From: an uncultured Methanobrevibacter sp.
GTDB taxonomy: Archaea; Methanobacteriota; Methanobacteria; Methanobacteriales; Methanobacteriaceae
NCBI RefSeq assembly: GCF_902764455.1
Contig: NZ_CACWVY010000018.1
Location: forward strand, 1 to 64,000
Direction of reading: 5' to 3'
DNA length: 64,000 bases
The notes under the pieces: generated by a model
What the model was told of the DNA's origin: nothing
Databases searched by the model: none
The model's input: the letters and a program-made list of their open reading frames with translations, nothing else
Shown here: piece by piece, positions 25,892 through 44,636 of the stretch
Position numbering within the stretch: the stretch's first letter is position 1
How the letters are laid out: each line of letters opens with the position of its first letter
Position numbers and translations under genes: made by a program

Positions 25892-27757
25892 TTACTTGTT
25901 CATTTTTAGGATAAGCATTGCTATATCATCAGATAATTCTTTATTATTACAGAACTTGTTGATATCCTCTTCAACGGATTTTATGATAATTTTTAATTCA
26001 TTATCCTTATTTTGATTTAATATTTTCTGCAGATTTCTTTCTCCATAATAGTTATCATTTCCATCGTTTGCATATGTAACTCCATCTGTATATAAGAATA
26101 CTGTATCATTAGGGTTTAAATGAATGGTATGCTTTTTATAATGGATATTTTCCATTCCTGCTAAAAGTAATCCTGGTTTTTCATTTAAATATTCAAAATC
26201 ACCATTATTTCGCCTAATTAATGGTTTTCTATGTCCTGCATTAACATAACATAATTCTCCAGTTTTTATATTAAGTTTTGCAAGTAAACAACCAACAAAT
26301 AATCCTTTAACGTTATTTTTACAAAGTTCGTTATTAAGTTCATATAATGCATCGGATAAATCTGAATAATATGTAGCATAATCCCTAATTAATGTCATAG
26401 TTTTTACTAGGATTAATGTAGTTGAGACTCCTTTTCCACTAACGTCGCCTATTACAATTCCGATATTTTCTTCATCGATTTTGAAATAATCATAAAAGTC
26501 TCCACCAACAGCATGTGCAGCTTTCATAAATCCCCAAAGATTTATATTATTAGTTTCATTGAATTTTTCAAAATCAGTTGGAATCATTGAATGTTGGATT
26601 TCATGAGCTAATTTGAGTTCTGTTTCATATCTTTCTTTTTCTTTAGTTACATCCAACAAATTTGCACGGTAATCAGCAAATTCTTTTTCCATATTAAGCA
26701 TGGATTCGGATAATGATTTTATTTCGTTATTCACTGTAATGTCATTTAAATTATTAACGAGATTATCTAAATCAACCTCATCATTTATTTCTTCTAATAG
26801 ATATGAAGATAATTGATTGATTGGGTTTAAAACTTGTTTTTCCAAAAAGTACATGTAAATAACTAATGGTATTAGAATGGCTAAGAAAAACCCGGATAAG
26901 AGAACCAAATAATTTAAAAATTCAGAAGTAATTTCATCTTCATAAATTCCAAGTGCAGTTAATGATACTAACAGAATTGTTGGGATTATTATTAAAATAA
27001 TGAATATTGAAAATAATGCCTTATAAAATATTGTAAGTTTCTGCCTATTTTTTATTTTAAAAACATCCTCATCAAGTGGTTTAAATAAAAATATTGCATA
27101 CAATATTAAAATTAAAAATAAACAAAGATTATTCTGATAATTTAATGTGGCTATGGAAAGAATTATTGCAATTGCCAATGCTAAATTGTATAATCGATCA
27201 GGCATAAATTTTTTAATTTGTTTTGGAGTATATACTGCAATATTTAATTTTCCAAATAGTCCCATACCTAATAATAGCAAGATTAATCCTAAAATAAAAA
27301 TCATGTAAAAACTTTCAAGGTTTAAGCTGAAAATTTCATTATATATTTGATGAGAGAATATGTATGTTTGTAAAATAATAAATAATATGATAATAATTAT
27401 TTTAGCAAAGCTGTAAAAACTGTTCATATTAGGTATTTCAAAACCTCTTTTGGATTTTGTCATGTACCATAATTTCCAAGGCAGTATTCCTAATACAATT
27501 AGCGATGATAAACTTAATAGGATTACTGTTGCATTACTCATGCCTAAGACTAAAATCCAATATAGAAGTTCAACTATGCTAAAACCTAATATTGCATATG
27601 GGCCTAGTAATAAACTTAATATAAGTAAAGCAGATAATTCTAAATGAATATAATTATTGTCAAACCAGAGGTATCCAATTAGTATAAGTATTATATTTAT
27701 TATCATGGAGATAAATACAATAAATATTGGTGATTTGAAAAGTTCTTTATAATTCAT
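25892..27757 (-). CDS. Membrane sensor with SpoIIE/RsbU-type PP2C phosphatase (copy 1)
   Basis: The product has 621 residues. Several membrane segments fill about the first 300 residues, then a HAMP-like/coiled stretch (about 300-400) leads to a PPM/SpoIIE phosphatase domain. Metal-binding motifs are present: GGDFYDYF, VIGDVSGKG, LYTDGVTYA and SDDIAMLIL. The enzyme should dephosphorylate a Ser-phosphorylated STAS protein, such as the one encoded at 33456. The ATG overlaps the stop of the neighbouring paralogue (ATGA), so the two are translationally coupled. The membrane part resembles multi-pass sensor domains; its signal is unknown. Confidence 0.85.
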   Translation of the reverse strand: MNYKELFKSPIFIVFISMIINIILILIGYLWFDNNYIHLELSALLILSLLLGPYAILGFSIVELLYWILVLGMSNATVILLSLSSLIVLGILPWKLWYMTKSKRGFEIPNMNSFYSFAKIIIIILFIILQTYIFSHQIYNEIFSLNLESFYMIFILGLILLLLGMGLFGKLNIAVYTPKQIKKFMPDRLYNLALAIAIILSIATLNYQNNLCLFLILILYAIFLFKPLDEDVFKIKNRQKLTIFYKALFSIFIILIIIPTILLVSLTALGIYEDEITSEFLNYLVLLSGFFLAILIPLVIYMYFLEKQVLNPINQLSSYLLEEINDEVDLDNLVNNLNDITVNNEIKSLSESMLNMEKEFADYRANLLDVTKEKERYETELKLAHEIQHSMIPTDFEKFNETNNINLWGFMKAAHAVGGDFYDYFKIDEENIGIVIGDVSGKGVSTTLILVKTMTLIRDYATYYSDLSDALYELNNELCKNNVKGLFVGCLLAKLNIKTGELCYVNAGHRKPLIRRNNGDFEYLNEKPGLLLAGMENIHYKKHTIHLNPNDTVFLYTDGVTYANDGNDNYYGERNLQKILNQNKDNELKIIIKSVEEDINKFCNNKELSDDIAMLILKMNK

Positions 27758-29682
27758 TCTACCCACCCGTTATATTTTATAATTAGCATAGTTATATCAT
27801 CATATTGTTCGCTGTTATTGTAAAATTTATCAATGTCTTTGGTAATTTCATTTATTATATCGTTTAATTTTTTATTTTTATTTTTATTAATTATTTCTTT
27901 TAAACGATTTTCACCATAAAATTCATTATAATTATCATTTGCTTCTGTAACTCCGTCAGTATATAAAAATATCAGATCTCCGGCATTTAAATTAATTTCA
28001 TGCTCGTTATACTGGATTCCTTCCATTCCACCAATGACAAGATTCGGATGGGTTTTCATGTATTCAAAATTATTGGAATCGTGTTTAATCAATGGTTGAT
28101 TGTGCCCCGCATTAACATAGGATAATTTTCCAGTTTTTAAGTTTAATTTTCCAAGCCAGATTGTTACAAATAATTCTTCGTCATTTCTTTCATAAGCTAA
28201 ATTATTTACTTTTTCAATCACTTGTGATAAATCCTCATTGAATTTTGCATGATTTTCAATTAAATACATTGTTTTAACCATGAATAATGTTGAGGGAATT
28301 CCTTTACCACTAACATCGCCGATGACAAAATATATATTGTCTTCATTGATTTTGAAATAATCATAAAAGTCTCCTCCAGCTTCTCTTGCAGGTTTCATAT
28401 ATGCATAGATTTCAAATGATTCATTTTTTGCAATTTCATCGAAATTTTTTGGCAGCATATTTGATTGTATTTGGCTTGCCACATCAAATTCTGTTTTAAA
28501 TTTTTCTTTTTCGGAAGTTGTTATTTGGAGTTGATTTAAATTAGTTCTAATTTTATCATATAATGTTACAAATGAGTTAACTAACAATCCGATACTGTCA
28601 TCATTTGTTATGTATTTCTTTAATTTATGTACTGATTCAACTTTATTTTTAGTTTTAAAGTAATTATCTGCAGTATCTATCATGGCATAAAGCGGATTAG
28701 TTATTGTTTTTTCAATGAATCGGATAAAGATTAATGAAACTAATAATATAAGCACGCTTGTGAATGAAAGAATGATTAAAATCTGATATGATGGATCTAT
28801 TTTAGGAACATATGATAAAATTAACACATGGAAATAGTTAAAGTTCAATATTATTGTCAAAGTTATAATAGCTAAGAAAACTAATATCATTTCCTCAATA
28901 ATTGAATAATTGTCATTTGTTGGTTCAACTGTCACGTCGAAAGTATTGAAATATAATAGTATTGAAGTAATTATTGTAACAAAATTGAAAAAATACCTTA
29001 GGGATTTGATATTTATAATAAACTCCTTAAGTAGGAAATAACCTACGCATATTAAAAGTACTGCTAAAAGATAATTTTGATTAATATTGATTTTTGTAAT
29101 CTTCTTTTTAGGAGTTTGTAAAGGTATTTTAAGGATATTGAAAGAACTAATTAGCAATAATCCGAATATTATAGTAAACGTAATAATATTTAACATGTAA
29201 GGTACATTAAAGTTTACATCTGAAATGGAATAGGAATAATTTAAATTATGGAAAAGTGAAAATGATATAACTAAAAATGAGAAATATACGATTGAAATTA
29301 GTATTGTTATTGATAAAAATTTGATAATATTATAAGTTGAATTAAATCTGGGAGTATCTTTTTTTCCTCTATTGAATGTAGTATACCATAATCTATATGT
29401 TAATACTGAAATAAAAAATGTGATTATAAAATCGATAAAAGGTGCAGGTAGTCCTATTCCTTCAAGCAGTTCTCCGACTAATGTTCCTAATGCAAAACCT
29501 AAAGCACCCATTGGACCAAACATTAAACCAAAAATTGGGCCAAGAGCAATATCTGCATATATGTAATAGCCCCCTATATGTTGAACTTCAAAAAGATAAT
29601 TAAATATCAATTCAACTGTAAATGTGAAAAGGATAATAAACCATTTTTTGGTAAATAATTTTTTAATTATAGTGGAGTCCAT
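27754..29682 (-). CDS. Membrane sensor with SpoIIE/RsbU-type PP2C phosphatase (copy 2)
   Basis: This 642-residue paralogue of the next gene has the same layout: a multi-pass N-terminus (with GPIFGLMFGPMGALGFALG near residue 50, reminiscent of small-molecule-binding membrane domains), further membrane segments to about 330, a linker, and a PP2C domain with GGDFYDYF, VIGDVSGKG, LYTDGVTEA and YDDITMLII. All metal-binding Asp residues look intact. Two phosphatases with different membrane parts imply two input signals acting on a common target. It is transcribed divergently from the sensor-kinase gene across about 100 bp containing TATATATACATATTTATATA. Confidence 0.85.
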   Translation of the reverse strand: MDSTIIKKLFTKKWFIILFTFTVELIFNYLFEVQHIGGYYIYADIALGPIFGLMFGPMGALGFALGTLVGELLEGIGLPAPFIDFIITFFISVLTYRLWYTTFNRGKKDTPRFNSTYNIIKFLSITILISIVYFSFLVISFSLFHNLNYSYSISDVNFNVPYMLNIITFTIIFGLLLISSFNILKIPLQTPKKKITKININQNYLLAVLLICVGYFLLKEFIINIKSLRYFFNFVTIITSILLYFNTFDVTVEPTNDNYSIIEEMILVFLAIITLTIILNFNYFHVLILSYVPKIDPSYQILIILSFTSVLILLVSLIFIRFIEKTITNPLYAMIDTADNYFKTKNKVESVHKLKKYITNDDSIGLLVNSFVTLYDKIRTNLNQLQITTSEKEKFKTEFDVASQIQSNMLPKNFDEIAKNESFEIYAYMKPAREAGGDFYDYFKINEDNIYFVIGDVSGKGIPSTLFMVKTMYLIENHAKFNEDLSQVIEKVNNLAYERNDEELFVTIWLGKLNLKTGKLSYVNAGHNQPLIKHDSNNFEYMKTHPNLVIGGMEGIQYNEHEINLNAGDLIFLYTDGVTEANDNYNEFYGENRLKEIINKNKNKKLNDIINEITKDIDKFYNNSEQYDDITMLIIKYNGWVE

Positions 29683-29785
29683 TGATACTATCTTTAATAA
29701 ACCTTATATATATACATATTTATATATAATTTTGTCAAGGATATAATGGTATTTTTGAAGTTATTAAATTGGAAGGCTGGTTTTG

Positions 29786-31651
29786 ATGAAGATTGAAAAG
29801 GACTATCTGAATTTAGAAGATGTTTATGAAATTCGAATTTTTAATGCTACTGTAAAGGATTTTTATAATTCAACACCACAGGAATTTGATATTGAAGATG
29901 ATCCAATTCAGGAGTTTCTCAATAATATTTCAGATGAGGTTCATATATTTATTCCATATGAAAATGGAAAAGATTTCATTATCCAGAAATCAAGCGGTAA
30001 TCTTCTTGAGACATACAATTTATCGCAAGAAGATGTAAAAGGCAGACTATTAAGTAAGATTTCACCATTATTTTTTGATAGTTTACATGATAATTTATTT
30101 GAGAGTTATACAAACCACACTACAAAAAAAATTAGGTTTGTATATTATGATACTCAGAATGAATCCATTAAGAAAAGTACTGCAAAAATAGTTTTTTATA
30201 TGGAAAAGATATTTATAATAGTTACGGATGTTTATGGAACAATAAGTAATCCTGAAAGCATGATTGATATAACTTTGGATGAAAACCAAAATAACATAAT
30301 GGAAAATCTTTCGCAAACTGGCAGTTATTATAAAATAAATGGAAAATATACCTGGTCTCAGGGAATATATAATATCATCAATCGTCCTAAAGAAGAATCT
30401 GATGAGCGCCACAATATTGTTTTAGATTTGGCGATTCCAGAGGATAAATATAAAGTTGATAAGATTTTAAATTTCACAAACAAAGAAACTTCACAATATG
30501 ATGAAATTCTTCGGATTGTGGATGGGGAGGGTATTTTAAAACTTATTGAAGTTACTGTTTATTCTTATTTTGATGATAAAGGTGTCTTTATTCGTCAAGG
30601 TTGGATTAATGTCCTTACTCAGAGACATAGTGAAAGTACTGAATCTATTGATTTTTTATTGGATGGTTCAAAAAGCACTATGAAATTAGCTTGGTTAATT
30701 GAACCTTTGAATAAAAAGCTATATAGTTTCTCCAAAGGTTTTTATAATCTGATTGAAAAGGATTACGAGGAATATGTTCATTCCCGTGAAATTTTAAATA
30801 ATATTGCTGAGAAAGAAGTTGTTGATGAAATTATAAAGCTGGCTGATGGTGACATAACTAAGGTTGACGAAACATTGACATATAAAGTTGACGGAGACCC
30901 TCAGAATATAAAGATTGTTAATTTGTATATTGAAAGATTTGAGTATAATAATAATGTGCATAGTCTTGGATTTTTAACAGACGTTACTGAAGAGATGCTG
31001 AAAAAAGAACAATTGATTGAATCTAATGAACGACAGCTAGTATTAATTAAGGAATTGCATCACAGAGTAAAGAATAATTTGCAAATTATTAATAGTTTTT
31101 TAAATCTTGAAAAACGTGCTTATAAAAATTCTCCTGAGTTAGTTATTGAACATATGCAAACACGTTTAACTTCCCTTGCATTGCTCCATGAAAAAATATA
31201 CAATTCTCCAGATTTTAAAAATATTAATTTAAAGGAATGTTTAAGTGATCAGGATGTAAGCACAAAAAAATTAGTTAATTCACCTATGGAAATCGAGTTT
31301 AAAACATATGTTGATGAAAATATAAATGTATCAATTGAAGTCATAACTCCATTGCTCTTAATCATTGATGAACTAACAATGATTGCTATAAGAAACGCAT
31401 TTCCAGAAAAAACGACACTAAAAAAGATAACTAAAAAAGTAACAATGTCTGATAAGGATACTGTGATTTTAACATTTGAAGAAATTGGTATTGGAATTAA
31501 AGATTCAAAGGACATTACTGATGTCATAGGATGTGAAATAATAAAAAGCTTAACAAAACAGTTAGACGGAACTATTACTTCAATAAAAATTGAAAACGGA
31601 ATTGTATATGAATTAGTTTTCCCTATTGAGATGATGCATACAATTCACTAA
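29786..31651 (+). CDS. PAS-type sensor protein with HisKA_2 domain and degenerate ATPase domain
   Basis: This 621-residue soluble protein has PAS-like regions in the first 400 residues (one ends LGFLTDVTEEMLKKEQL), then a HisKA_2 dimer/phosphoacceptor helix (IKELHHRVKNNLQIINSFLNLE region, His pair near residue 429) and a C-terminal HATPase_c-like domain. The ATPase motifs are degraded: the N-box reads ELTMIAIRNAF where ELxxNAxxHAF is expected, so the Mg-binding Asn is missing, and the G1 Asp is replaced (EEIGIGI). No response regulator lies nearby. It may sense a ligand and signal by binding rather than by phosphotransfer. ATG 29786 is preferred over TTG 29783. Confidence 0.75.
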   Translation: MKIEKDYLNLEDVYEIRIFNATVKDFYNSTPQEFDIEDDPIQEFLNNISDEVHIFIPYENGKDFIIQKSSGNLLETYNLSQEDVKGRLLSKISPLFFDSLHDNLFESYTNHTTKKIRFVYYDTQNESIKKSTAKIVFYMEKIFIIVTDVYGTISNPESMIDITLDENQNNIMENLSQTGSYYKINGKYTWSQGIYNIINRPKEESDERHNIVLDLAIPEDKYKVDKILNFTNKETSQYDEILRIVDGEGILKLIEVTVYSYFDDKGVFIRQGWINVLTQRHSESTESIDFLLDGSKSTMKLAWLIEPLNKKLYSFSKGFYNLIEKDYEEYVHSREILNNIAEKEVVDEIIKLADGDITKVDETLTYKVDGDPQNIKIVNLYIERFEYNNNVHSLGFLTDVTEEMLKKEQLIESNERQLVLIKELHHRVKNNLQIINSFLNLEKRAYKNSPELVIEHMQTRLTSLALLHEKIYNSPDFKNINLKECLSDQDVSTKKLVNSPMEIEFKTYVDENINVSIEVITPLLLIIDELTMIAIRNAFPEKTTLKKITKKVTMSDKDTVILTFEEIGIGIKDSKDITDVIGCEIIKSLTKQLDGTITSIKIENGIVYELVFPIEMMHTIH

Positions 31652-31690
31652 TCAAAATATTTTGATGTTTAATATTATGCTGGTAAAATT

Positions 31691-33451
31691 ATGAATTTAT
31701 TAAGTAACGATAATAAATTATTAAATTCCTTTTTTAAAAACTATATTCTTGGGGCAGTAATTGCTGTTGTATGTACTATTTTAGTAGTTATTCTAAATGG
31801 AATAATTATTGGTAACTTTTTTGGTAAAATTGGTCTTGCAGCATTCGGTTTGGCATTACCTGTCCTTTATGCGAATTTGGCAATAGGATATATATTCGCA
31901 TATGGAGGTTCTATTGTTGCATCTAATAATATGGCTGATGAAAAAAGAGTAAATAACAATTTCACAGTAGTATGCATTGTTGCAGCAATTATCGGAATAG
32001 TTTTAACAGTTTTATTATTAATGTTTACGCCAAATGTTGCGCAAATGTTGGGTGCTACTGGTGAATCATTTAATGCAACAGTATCATTGATGAAGGGATT
32101 GTTTTTAGTAATTTTACCATTGATTTTTCTATATATTTTTATAAATTATTCAAGAATCGATGGATATCCGTCATTAGGTCTTTATGCAGGTTTATCATTA
32201 GTTTTATTAAATCTGATTTTAAATTTAGTATTTGTAATGATATTTAAAACAGATATTTTTGGTGTTGGGCTGGCAACTGCATTAAGTGCCATAATTACTG
32301 TACTATTTTTATTGAGTCATTTTCTTTCAAATAGAAGCACATATAAATTCCAAAGAAATTTAGAATTTAAAATGGAATTGTCTCAAGTAATAAAATCAGG
32401 GCTTCCTAATGCTTTAAATCAAATTTATAATATGCTTCGTACTATAATTACAAATTATTTGGGTGTAATGGTTGGGGGATTAATATTTTTAAGTGCTCTT
32501 TCTATACAGTCAAATATTTATTTATTGCTGTGCAGTGTAGGTGTTGGAATTGGATCAACTACTTTGGCATTGGGAGGATTATTTTATGGTGAAAAAGATA
32601 AAACCCAATTGGAACAATTATTAGAAATATCAATTAAATATGCATTATTCATTATTTCTATAATTGCATTAATTCTGTTTATTTTCGCTCCTTATTTTGT
32701 TTATATGTTTGGAAAAAATCCGGAGGTATATGATGTAACAGTAAGAGGCCTTAGAATATTTGCGTGGTCTCTACCGTTTTCAGGATTATGTTTCATTTTA
32801 TTAAACTTTTATAATGCGACACAGCAGTTAAAAATTGCTAATTATATAAGTTTTGCCCATAGTTTCTTATTTTTATCAGCATTTGCAATCATATTTTCAT
32901 TTCTAATGGGGGGTGATGGTATTTGGATAAGTTTTGTATTAGGTGAAATTGTTACTTTGCTTAGTTTACCATTCTTAATTAAATTGAAAACTAAAAAATT
33001 CCCCAAATCATTAAGTGATTTTGTAATAATGGATGAAAATCTGTTTCCCTCTGAAGATACTTATGAAGTATATGTTGAATCGGAAGAGGAGCTGTTAGAT
33101 GTTGTTGAAAATATTGATAAAAATTTGGTGGACGATGATTTAGATGATGAAACTAAATTGAAAATACAACTAATTCTTGAGGAAATGGGTACAGCTATCT
33201 TTGCCCATGCATATAAATCTAAGAAAGATAAATACCTAAATATTAGGATTCTTTATAAAAATACTGAGGATATTATAGTTTATTTCCAAGATAGTGGTGT
33301 TCCTTTTGATATTGAAAAGGATTTTCAGAAAAAAGAAGACTTGGGGATTAAAATTATCAAAAACTTTTCAAAGGATATGGAACATAATTATAATTATAAT
33401 GTTAAACTAAATAACAATAAGATTGTTATTCCTAAAAATTATAATTGGTGA
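31691..33451 (+). CDS. MATE family transporter fused to an RsbW-like ATPase domain
   Basis: Residues about 1-440 are a full 12-helix MATE exporter (for example FGKIGLAAFGLALPVLYANLAIG). Residues about 450-586 are an RsbW/SpoIIAB-like HATPase domain on the cytosolic side. Its G1 loop is present (QDSGVPF), but the N-box reads EEMGTAIFAHAY, with Ala where the Mg-binding Asn belongs, and the G2 glycine-rich loop is reduced to DLGIKII. The domain may therefore bind the STAS partner without kinase activity, gating export. The transported substrate is unknown. The STAS gene follows with its ribosome binding site over this stop codon. Confidence 0.85.
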   Translation: MNLLSNDNKLLNSFFKNYILGAVIAVVCTILVVILNGIIIGNFFGKIGLAAFGLALPVLYANLAIGYIFAYGGSIVASNNMADEKRVNNNFTVVCIVAAIIGIVLTVLLLMFTPNVAQMLGATGESFNATVSLMKGLFLVILPLIFLYIFINYSRIDGYPSLGLYAGLSLVLLNLILNLVFVMIFKTDIFGVGLATALSAIITVLFLLSHFLSNRSTYKFQRNLEFKMELSQVIKSGLPNALNQIYNMLRTIITNYLGVMVGGLIFLSALSIQSNIYLLLCSVGVGIGSTTLALGGLFYGEKDKTQLEQLLEISIKYALFIISIIALILFIFAPYFVYMFGKNPEVYDVTVRGLRIFAWSLPFSGLCFILLNFYNATQQLKIANYISFAHSFLFLSAFAIIFSFLMGGDGIWISFVLGEIVTLLSLPFLIKLKTKKFPKSLSDFVIMDENLFPSEDTYEVYVESEEELLDVVENIDKNLVDDDLDDETKLKIQLILEEMGTAIFAHAYKSKKDKYLNIRILYKNTEDIIVYFQDSGVPFDIEKDFQKKEDLGIKIIKNFSKDMEHNYNYNVKLNNNKIVIPKNYNW

Positions 33452-33455
33452 ATTT

Positions 33456-33752
33456 ATGGACATAGAAAAACACAAAGACGGAAAAAAATTATATATTAAA
33501 TTAACCGGCAGATTAGATACAAAAAATTCTCCCAAACTTAAAGAAGTGCTTGAAAACAGTTTAGATGATGTCGAAGAGTTAACTTTTGATTTATCTGAAT
33601 TAATTTATATTTCAAGTTCAGGGCTTCGAATAATTTTATCTACTCAAAAAACAATGAACAAACAGGGTTCCATGAAAGTAACTAATGTTCAGGATATTGT
33701 GATGGAGGTATTTGAATCAACAGGATTTGTAGATATATTGACTATTGAATAG
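33456..33752 (+). CDS. STAS-domain anti-anti-sigma-like factor (RsbV/SpoIIAA type)
   Basis: This 98-residue protein is a single STAS domain. The phosphorylation loop YISSSGLRIIL (residues 51-61) aligns with the DSSGL loop of SpoIIAA/RsbV, making Ser54 the likely phospho-acceptor; the usual Asp before it is Ser53. In bacteria such proteins bind and are phosphorylated by RsbW-type kinases and are reset by SpoIIE-type phosphatases. All those partners are encoded here. ATG 33456 follows GGTGA that overlaps the preceding stop. No sigma factor exists in archaea, so its target must be another protein. Confidence 0.88.
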   Translation: MDIEKHKDGKKLYIKLTGRLDTKNSPKLKEVLENSLDDVEELTFDLSELIYISSSGLRIILSTQKTMNKQGSMKVTNVQDIVMEVFESTGFVDILTIE

Positions 33753-33767
33753 TTATGAGGTTGAATT

Positions 33768-35903
33768 ATGGATTTGGGCGATATTGATATTACTGAATTA
33801 TCTTTTTCAGAACAATTTTATTTAAATTGTATTTCAAAGGGAAATAATGTTCGTAAATCATTAGAGGTCATGACACAGAATCCCATGAAATATAATACGG
33901 CTTTGTTAATGAAAATTATAAATGATAATGAAGATACCGAATATGGGCAAAAATATGATTTTGCAAACATTAAAAGCATTGAAGACTATCAAACAAAGGT
34001 TCCTATAACTGATTATGATAGTTATGCAGATTACATTTATAGAATGACTGAAAATGGGGAAAAGAATTTACTAACCTCCTATGAAATAATTCATTATGCA
34101 AAATCTTCAGGTACAATGGGAAACCCTAAAAGGATACCTACCACATCTCTTAATCAAGAAATCAATATGAAATATAATTATGATTATCTATTTAATTTGT
34201 TTGCTGAAAAAGTTGGTTTGTACTGGATTAAATATCCCTTTTTAAATTTAACTGAACTTTCTATGTCCAAATTGCCTTCTGGTGATACTTATGGTTCTAT
34301 TTCTGGTAAATTAATGGATGTTTTTGGAAATATGGCCTTTGATGTTACCACATCACCCATTGAAGCTTTAATTCCTTGTATTGGAACTAACATTCGTTAT
34401 ATTCATGCACGTTTTGCATTAGTCAATCCTGATATTTCATTTACAATAACTAGTTTTGTCAGTTTGTTTTTAGAATTTCTACGTTACATTAAAGGCAATT
34501 GGAAACTATTAGTCAATGATATTGAAAAGGGGACCATTGATGAATCCATAAAAATGCCTAGTGAAGTTCGTGAAAGTTTGTTTGGAAAAATAGAACCGAT
34601 GCCGGAAAGAGCAGAAGAACTAAGAAAAATATTTGAAGAAGGTTTTGATGAACCTATTGTTCCTAAAATTTGGCCAAAAATGCTGCTTCTTATAGGATGC
34701 GGATCTGGAGGATTTAAAAATTATCTTAAGAAAATTAAAGAGTTCACGAGTCCTGATTTTAATTTTGCATTAGTCGGATTAACTGCGTCTGAAGGTATAT
34801 TTTCACTTTTTACAGAATTAAACAATCAGAATTCTGTTCTCATACCAGACAGCATGTTTTATGAATTTTTACCGTTGGACGATAATGGTGACTACAGTAA
34901 AATAGTGACTATGGACAAGTTAGAAGAAGGAAAAGAATATGAAGTTATCACAACTAATCTGTCAGGATTTTATCGTTACAGGATGAAAGATGTCGTTCGT
35001 TGTACTGGAAGATATAATAACACTCCAATGATTGAATTTTTATACAGGTTAGACCAATGTTTATGTTTGGCTGGTGAGAAGGTTAACGGAGAGAACCTAA
35101 GAGCAGCAGCATATAAAACAGAAAAAGATTTCGGGTTCGATTTAATAGATTTTTCAGTTTACGCTGATTCTGACTCATCGCCTATGAAATATGTTTATTT
35201 AATGGAAGTTGAGGATTTGCCAGAAGGAGTAACAAAAGATATCATTCAGGAAAAATTGAATGAGAATTTCTGTGCAACAGATTCTGTTTTACGTAATAAA
35301 ATTGAAAAAAGCATAATTGGAAAAACAGAGCTTTATTTCTTGCAACCAGAAACATATTTGCTCTATAAAGAATTGAAAGTTGCTAGAGGAACTTCTCCTG
35401 CTCAAGTTAAACCGCCTAGGATATTAATAGATGAACGGGATGTAAATTTCTTTAATGTTTTAAGAGATGATGAATTAAATCAGATTGATGACTTAAATAT
35501 GGAAGAAATTATTTTAAAATCCAATATAGAAAATTTAGATTTACTTTTATTAAAAATAGATGAATTCATTGACGATAAAGGGGTTTCAATGAAATCTAAA
35601 TTAAAATTGGAGTTAATAATTGAAGAGCTATTTGTAAATATTTGTAATTATGCATATGAAAAAGAAGGAGAAATAAAAATCCAATATGGACTTTTAGAAG
35701 ACCCCTTTAGGATAATAATGAATTTTATTGATGAGGGAGTAGAGTTTAATCCGTTAGATAAAGAGGGTCCTGATTTGACTCTTGATGCAAATCAAAGAGA
35801 TATTGGAGGATTAGGTTTAACTATAGTTCGAAAAAATGCAGATGAAATTGATTATAAATATGAAAATAATCAAAATATTCTAACTGTTGAAAAAATATTT
35901 TAG
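33768..35903 (+). CDS. GH3-family acyl-adenylating enzyme fused to an RsbW-like kinase domain
   Basis: Residues about 1-560 match the GH3 family (auxin-responsive GH3/JAR1-like ligases of the ANL superfamily), with the ATP-binding YAKSSGTMGNPKRIPTT (near 111), TEYGQKYDF near the N-terminus, and FYRYRMKDVVRCTG, equivalent to the conserved 'YRYRxGDxV' segment. Such enzymes adenylate a carboxylate and join it to an amine. Residues about 590-711 form an RsbW-like ATPase with an intact N-box (EELFVNICNYAY), G1 (DEGVEF) and G2 (GGLGL). It is the only ATPase at this locus likely to be an active STAS kinase. Substrates are unknown. Confidence 0.8.
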   Translation: MDLGDIDITELSFSEQFYLNCISKGNNVRKSLEVMTQNPMKYNTALLMKIINDNEDTEYGQKYDFANIKSIEDYQTKVPITDYDSYADYIYRMTENGEKNLLTSYEIIHYAKSSGTMGNPKRIPTTSLNQEINMKYNYDYLFNLFAEKVGLYWIKYPFLNLTELSMSKLPSGDTYGSISGKLMDVFGNMAFDVTTSPIEALIPCIGTNIRYIHARFALVNPDISFTITSFVSLFLEFLRYIKGNWKLLVNDIEKGTIDESIKMPSEVRESLFGKIEPMPERAEELRKIFEEGFDEPIVPKIWPKMLLLIGCGSGGFKNYLKKIKEFTSPDFNFALVGLTASEGIFSLFTELNNQNSVLIPDSMFYEFLPLDDNGDYSKIVTMDKLEEGKEYEVITTNLSGFYRYRMKDVVRCTGRYNNTPMIEFLYRLDQCLCLAGEKVNGENLRAAAYKTEKDFGFDLIDFSVYADSDSSPMKYVYLMEVEDLPEGVTKDIIQEKLNENFCATDSVLRNKIEKSIIGKTELYFLQPETYLLYKELKVARGTSPAQVKPPRILIDERDVNFFNVLRDDELNQIDDLNMEEIILKSNIENLDLLLLKIDEFIDDKGVSMKSKLKLELIIEELFVNICNYAYEKEGEIKIQYGLLEDPFRIIMNFIDEGVEFNPLDKEGPDLTLDANQRDIGGLGLTIVRKNADEIDYKYENNQNILTVEKIF

Positions 35904-43383: not shown

Positions 43384-44636
<1,253 letters not shown>

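Follow-up and report, generated by a model that had tools for sequence, protein, structure and literature searches.

Introduction

In the RsbU/RsbV/RsbW protein families, a SpoIIE phosphatase removes the phosphate from a STAS protein, and an RsbW-like domain puts it back. This partner-switching chemistry is the family background of the locus analyzed here, which is found in an archaeon, a host that, to our knowledge, has no sigma factors. The locus extends from position 25,892 to 35,903 of a 64,000-nucleotide stretch of an uncultured Methanobrevibacter sp. (contig NZ_CACWVY010000018.1), hereafter called the window. It encodes two membrane SpoIIE phosphatases, one STAS protein, and two RsbW-like domains, one fused to a MATE-family exporter and the other to a GH3-family acyl-acid amido synthetase. 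On balance, we favor the proposal that a sigma-less partner-switching module acts at the protein level to control how a small amide or peptide product is made and exported.

Related systems have been described, as follows. In the SiaABCD system of Pseudomonas aeruginosa, unphosphorylated SiaC activates the diguanylate cyclase SiaD (PMC7647112, PMC8457831). SpoII-type proteins occur without a sigma factor in Methanomicrobiales, and their targets were stated to be undeterminable from sequence, given the lack of sigma factors in archaea (PMC2686161, 2009). In M. ruminantium M1, genes for MatE, a serine phosphatase, an anti-sigma antagonist, and an anti-sigma kinase surround nonribosomal peptide synthetase (NRPS) or phosphopantetheinyl transferase (PPTase) genes (mru0066–0071 and mru0512–0516), and sensing plus regulation of NRPS expression was proposed for these neighborhoods (PMC2812497, 2010). 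Hence NRPS-MatE-phosphatase-STAS neighborhoods as such are already known from that 2010 report. In the literature searched, with most subscription papers outside its coverage, we found no report of MATE-HATPase or GH3-HATPase fusions, of a split between kinase and pseudokinase domains, or of a GH3 version common to gut bacteria; a search for GH3 together with Methanobrevibacter gave nothing relevant.

RsbW-Like Domains of the Exporter and the Synthetase

The exporter fusion is encoded on the plus strand by a single gene (31691–33451; PF01554, 2e-24; PF13581, 1e-6). The MATE part (31691–33040), a predicted exporter, contains two MatE repeats, i.e., PF01554 matches in two stretches. The C-terminal RsbW/SpoIIAB-like domain (33041–33451) scores 29.1 bits against a PF13581 cut-off of 27.4, a weaker Pfam match than that of the GH3-linked domain. 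An AlphaFold2 model built from an alignment of fourteen relatives has a pLDDT (predicted local distance difference test score) of 83.5, and its best PDB matches are SpoIIAB, UsfX, and RsbW. The prediction is thus that the exporter domain retains a SpoIIAB/RsbW fold.

The synthetase fusion, also on the plus strand, extends from 33768 to 35903 (PF03321, 1.5e-63; PF13581, 3.5e-15). Its GH3 part (33768–35462) includes the N, M, and C domains (PF03321/PF23571/PF23572) and matches the plant GH3.12, GH3.8, and JAR1 structures over its full length, with E down to 1.5e-42. The nucleotide-binding stretches KSSGTxGNPK, SEG, and YRYxxxD are invariant or nearly so among relatives, so that both the domains and the motifs are those of a GH3 acyl-acid amido synthetase. 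An identity with the lyso-ornithine lipid synthetase OlsH was considered and rejected, as the NF052613 score is 59.7 bits and the cut-off is 620. The RsbW-like serine-kinase domain that follows (35463–35903; HATPase match 35523–35891) matches RsbW by sequence (6m36).

The motifs separate the two domains. Ninety-nine domains were compared: 49 of kinase type, being stand-alone or fused to GH3 or SpoIIE, and 50 fused to MATE. The N-box Glu and Asn, the G1 Asp and Gly, and the G2 GGxG are kept in 49/49 of the former, bacterial examples included. In contrast, GGxG is kept in 0/50 MATE-fused domains, none of which therefore has the motif set of an active kinase; the N-box Asn is also lost in 12/50, and the window's copy has Ala. 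Profile comparison connects the two HATPase classes. In a tree, the kinase class (30 rows, support 100/99) stands apart from all MATE-fused domains, with the GH3-fused domains nested inside the stand-alone kinases. Because of this motif split, the kinase appears to sit on the GH3 enzyme, while the RsbW-like domain of the exporter is a probable pseudokinase or reader domain. That is, the two fused domains do not look equivalent.

The GH3 and kinase parts are fused in the window's own genome (G000) and in G018, G100, and G122. They are separate open reading frames (ORFs) in G032, G106, G126, G152, and the Methanomassiliicoccaceae archaeon UBA71. The arrangement reads as a recent fusion of a stand-alone kinase that adjoins GH3 in other genera. 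In G106 and G114 (L060 and L061), the ORF for GH3 and that for the kinase share some 40 bases and lie downstream of two ABC exporters; a possible explanation is an intermediate towards the fusion, with ABC exporters in MATE's place.

Many genera conserve the exporter fusion. MATE proteins of about 560–605 residues, longer than usual, are multi-copy across Methanobacteriaceae, and in many of them the match to the MATE-HATPase profile extends to the profile end. In contig C33 of the window's own genome, a MATE protein with a HATPase-like tail adjoins a 565-residue protein resembling an ATP-grasp ligase (L150:9026–12481). Amide-forming enzymes of any of three kinds, NRPS, GH3, or ATP-grasp, may be partners of HATPase-tailed exporters.

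Phosphatases, STAS Protein, and Gene Arrangement

Both phosphatase genes are on the minus strand. SpoIIE1 (25892–27766) has a membrane N-terminus and a SpoIIE/RsbU-type PPM phosphatase domain at residues 432–622 (PF07228, E = 4e-43). SpoIIE2 (27754–29682), which overlaps it by 13 bp, has a membrane N-terminus, a coiled linker, and the same type of domain (PF07228, E = 3e-49). The metal-binding and catalytic Asp motifs GGDFYDY, GDVSGKG, YTDGVT, and the C-terminal DD are all intact in both. An AlphaFold2 model of SpoIIE2 has a pLDDT of 82, and the best PDB matches of its catalytic part are RsbU, RssB, SiaA, and SpoIIE. The membrane parts have no Pfam match, and for SpoIIE2 none was found among the top 50 PDB structural matches.

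The stand-alone STAS protein (33456–33752, plus strand; PF01740, 1e-14) is of the anti-anti-sigma type, matching TIGR00377, anti-sigma antagonist, at 67.6 bits against a cut-off of 53.5. Translation most likely starts at the ATG at 33456, which gives 98 residues as in relatives, rather than at the TTG at 33423. Numbered from this ATG, Ser54 occupies the phospho-acceptor position that is invariant in an alignment of relatives, YIS-S54-xGLR; the adjacent Ser55 is Ala in most relatives. To summarize, the parts of a partner switch are present: an intact PPM/SpoIIE phosphatase, a STAS protein with an acceptor serine, and a HATPase_c_2 kinase with N, G1, and G2 boxes. The last of these is the GH3-fused domain; the exporter-fused domain lacks the complete boxes.

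Between the two divergent blocks into which the six genes fall lie 100 bp of AT-rich DNA (29683–29782; sequence read directly), presumably with the promoters of both. The two phosphatase genes run leftward. The rightward block consists of a PAS-HisKA_2 sensor histidine kinase gene (29783–31651; PF07568, 1e-17), an optional member, followed by MATE+HATPase, STAS, and GH3+HATPase; the STAS ATG lies 4 bp past the MATE stop, and GH3+HATPase lies 15 bp past STAS. The ORFs and their Pfam and NCBIfam domains bear out a preliminary description, made from the window's sequence, of two membrane phosphatases, one STAS protein, and two RsbW-like fusions. The gene arrangement likewise agrees with the two divergent transcripts described there. 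The PAS-HisKA_2 kinase was not listed there as a switch part. No sigma-like gene is found among the genes of the locus, again as described.

The ATPase domain of the PAS-HisKA_2 kinase looks degraded. In the window, the N-box Asn is lost (the N-box reads DELTMIAIRNAF) and the G1/G2 boxes are altered (EEIGIG), whereas the homologue in the sibling genome G018 (L071:16284–18182) retains them and has the N-box DELTMNAIKHAF. In G018, a second PAS-HisKA_2 copy adjoins the first and is cut by the contig end. The kinase was rejected as a core part, being absent from the G100 and G122 clusters and degraded in the window.

The window's own genome is a 2.75 Mb assembly of 85 contigs, the nearest named relatives of which are rumen and gut Methanobrevibacter metagenome-assembled genomes. 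Related genes lie elsewhere in it. Contig C20 carries a second tandem pair of membrane SpoIIE genes (L006:6562–10366), with no STAS or HATPase gene nearby. Contig C48 encodes a 433-residue protein with a C-terminal STAS domain (YVSSAGLR; L007:11193–12494), about 1.2 kb from an orphan SpoIIE (L007:8569–10020). The long N-terminal part of this protein has no Pfam match and reads like an S-adenosylmethionine-dependent methyltransferase; it is possibly another enzyme wired to the switch. Further along the window, at 43390–44636, a pyridoxal-phosphate enzyme of Cys/Met metabolism is split between two ORFs in different frames, neither of which covers the intervening profile positions ~57–128; this looks like a frameshift or an assembly error.

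Conservation in Archaea and Gut Bacteria

The exact five-gene set, i.e., two SpoIIE, MATE-HATPase, STAS, and GH3-HATPase, is present in four Methanobrevibacter species (G000, G018, G100, and G122); a SpoIIE1 orthologue is found in 3/3 of the other clusters. Recurrence in three other species is far beyond chance. In G000, G100, and G122, the set lies between valS and aroA-nth-cysK, and the identical right border is seen at the end of a contig in G016. In G002, the valS-aroA site is empty except for a 42-residue HATPase remnant upstream of aroA (L043, G002:C12:40735–40860; 81% identical), which appears to be the trace of a lost locus. The survey thus found linkage in relatives, not scattering. 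Of the expectation that all six genes stay together, the five-gene part holds; the PAS kinase, absent from G100 and G122, does not belong to the constant set.

More distant archaea have related arrangements. The order in M. curvatus (L054/L077) is STAS-GH3-GH3′-MATE+HATPase-kinase-SpoIIE, and Methanovirga australis (L052/L093) has the same elements in a different order. M. cuticularis (L057/L076) has STAS-GH3-GH3′-MATE+HATPase; G072 (L053) has a kinase, MATE+HATPase, and GH3, with no STAS visible; and UBA71 (L074) has STAS-GH3-kinase-SpoIIE. In a second cluster type, NRPS replaces GH3: PPTase-SpoIIE-kinase-STAS lies divergent from NRPS-MATE+HATPase, or in a permutation of this order (L062, L065, L069, L155, L156, L157, and contig C3 of the window's own genome). 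The locus is one version of a wider set that, across Methanobacteriaceae, mostly flanks NRPS genes. Of 57 stand-alone kinases in the genus, 22 have a full-length MATE-HATPase gene no more than 15.5 kb away, where about 1.2 are expected. The count is a lower bound given fragmented assemblies, and it carries no formal probability at face value, since related genomes do not provide independent observations. None of the genes common to the compared clusters encodes a DNA-binding protein.

The kit is not confined to archaea. A GH3 scan of 84,980 species genomes found proteins 34–49% identical mainly in rumen and gut Clostridia, Lachnospiraceae, and Coriobacteria. Lachnospiraceae AC3007 (L111) has SpoIIE, a SpoIIE+kinase fusion, STAS, GH3, and MATE+HATPase. 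A second cluster (L092) has MATE, MATE+HATPase, SpoIIE, STAS, kinase, and GH3, and partial kits are found at L089, L110, L149, L117, and L120. In archaea of two phyla, as in Lachnospiraceae, Ruminococcus, and Coriobacteria, STAS is the gene directly 5′ of GH3. The switch-linked label is clustered in the GH3 tree, where about seven changes account for it, and 12/12 archaeal rows of the window's clade carry the label. No sigma factor is among the flanking genes scanned at the two bacterial clusters L111 and L092. Therefore, the absence of a sigma factor near the kit is not only due to an archaeal host. A phosphatidylserine decarboxylase gene adjoins L092; a lipid role was set aside, as L111, the other fully annotated bacterial cluster, does not have that gene.

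Proposed Mechanism and Alternatives

The proposal builds on the parts, the fusions, the motif split of the two HATPase classes, and the linkage across species and domains of life. The first two steps follow known RsbU/RsbV/RsbW family chemistry by analogy. The membrane SpoIIE phosphatases would sense a signal and remove the phosphate from STAS Ser54. The motif-complete RsbW-like kinase domain, GH3-fused here and a separate protein in most relatives, would rephosphorylate STAS. The third step is suggested by the fusion of genes and the loss of motifs: the RsbW-like probable pseudokinase domain of the MATE exporter would be engaged by STAS in its unphosphorylated state or, alternatively, by the kinase domain linked to GH3. 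The opening of the exporter would thereby be switched together with the activity of the synthetase or its recruitment to the membrane. Control of amide or peptide synthesis plus export would be direct and post-translational.

The preliminary description had the STAS protein docking on both fused ATPase domains. Docking cannot mean the same at the two, because the GH3 domain is motif-complete and the MATE domain lacks G2. The idea of direct output to the exporter and the GH3 enzyme, a putative wiring, is strengthened by the similar clusters in gut bacteria, with no sigma factor in the two flanks scanned. A broader form of the proposal goes further: in a module shared by archaeal and bacterial gut microbes, the dead RsbW-like domain on MATE would read STAS phosphorylation, gating export and synthesis without transcription, and archaeal "anti-sigma" systems would thereby have their first known targets. 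We put this forward tentatively, at a little less than an even chance.

Several observations weigh against the proposal. Linkage is incomplete: in the closed genome G014, a stand-alone kinase (1.61 Mb) lies far from the NRPS-MATE-STAS cluster (0.85–0.86 Mb). Switch genes are missing from the neighborhood of many bacterial GH3 relatives. Many MATE-HATPase genes likewise occur without a kinase nearby, so that the exporter domain may respond to some other input. Finally, GGxG loss is no proof of lost ATP binding, and the exporter domain may retain residual binding.

SpoIIAB and RsbW are dimers, which opens an alternative: the dead exporter domain might pair with the GH3 kinase domain, or with a stand-alone kinase, and so hold synthetase and exporter together as a channelling complex, with STAS breaking or making the pair. 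A motif-complete and a dead domain of one fold, encoded in the same cluster, would suit such a heterodimer, as would dimerization in the SpoIIAB/RsbW family and the restriction of the kinase-GH3 fusion to the window's lineage. However, the kinase is a separate protein in most genomes and, alone, could not tether the synthetase. This tether overlaps with the proposed switch, most evidence being common to both, and we regard it as rather unlikely.

Less probable still is a transcriptional output, in which the switch regulates the neighboring synthetase genes through an archaeal transcription factor and the fusions are secondary. The NRPS-linked phosphatase and STAS genes of M. ruminantium were read in this way (PMC2812497), and CapK/CapS is a kinase-STAS pair controlling a repressor (PMC13373217). 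Against this, none of the shared genes encodes a DNA-binding protein, and the fusions, that of the exporter being so widely conserved, tie the switch to a transporter and an enzyme instead. A chance neighborhood of unrelated regulators and metabolic genes, or a decaying one, is very hard to credit, for despite the degraded PAS kinase and the G002 remnant, four species share the gene set, it recurs between different flanks in other genera and again in bacteria, and the catalytic motifs of phosphatases, kinase, and GH3 are intact.

The gene fusions name candidate targets for the SpoIIAA/SpoIIAB/SpoIIE-like proteins of archaea: an exporter and an amide synthetase. The clean motif split predicts which of the fused domains is kinase and which is reader. 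The question of the targets thereby becomes testable with four small purified pieces. The kit accompanies NRPS genes in rumen methanogens and also occurs in Clostridia of the rumen and gut, which is relevant to the control of unexplored secreted metabolites by gut microbes.

Comparison with Known Systems

The window's GH3 part has the same full-length fold and conserved motifs as the plant enzymes GH3.12/PBS3 and JAR1 and the bacterial OlsH. Unlike these, it has an added C-terminal RsbW-like domain, and its OlsH score is far under the cut-off. The M. ruminantium M1 NRPS neighborhoods share MatE, phosphatase, antagonist, and kinase genes with the window's locus, but the fusions, the pseudokinase, and the GH3 version are not described in PMC2812497. 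The Methanomicrobiales SpoII-type proteins, like those of the window, are an archaeal trio of anti-sigma, anti-anti-sigma, and phosphatase with no sigma factor; unlike at the window's locus, no fusion naming a target was reported for them (PMC2686161).

The Bacillus systems SpoIIAA/SpoIIAB/SpoIIE and RsbV/RsbW/RsbU comprise the same three protein families, and both HATPase domains of the fusions match RsbW and SpoIIAB best. In Bacillus, the target is a sigma factor and the HATPase stands alone, whereas in the window there is no sigma factor and the HATPase is fused to a transporter and to an enzyme. By analogy, the closest mechanistic precedent appears to be SiaABCD. Both have a membrane PP2C/SpoIIE phosphatase, a kinase, and a STAS-like protein, and SiaA is among the best structural matches of the window's phosphatase domain. 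SiaABCD differs in having no exporter, no GH3 enzyme, and no HATPase fused to the output, and the acceptor in SiaC is Thr68. Its output is the enzyme SiaD, not a sigma factor, and the SiaC-SiaD pair is a precedent for an enzyme as the output of a partner switch.

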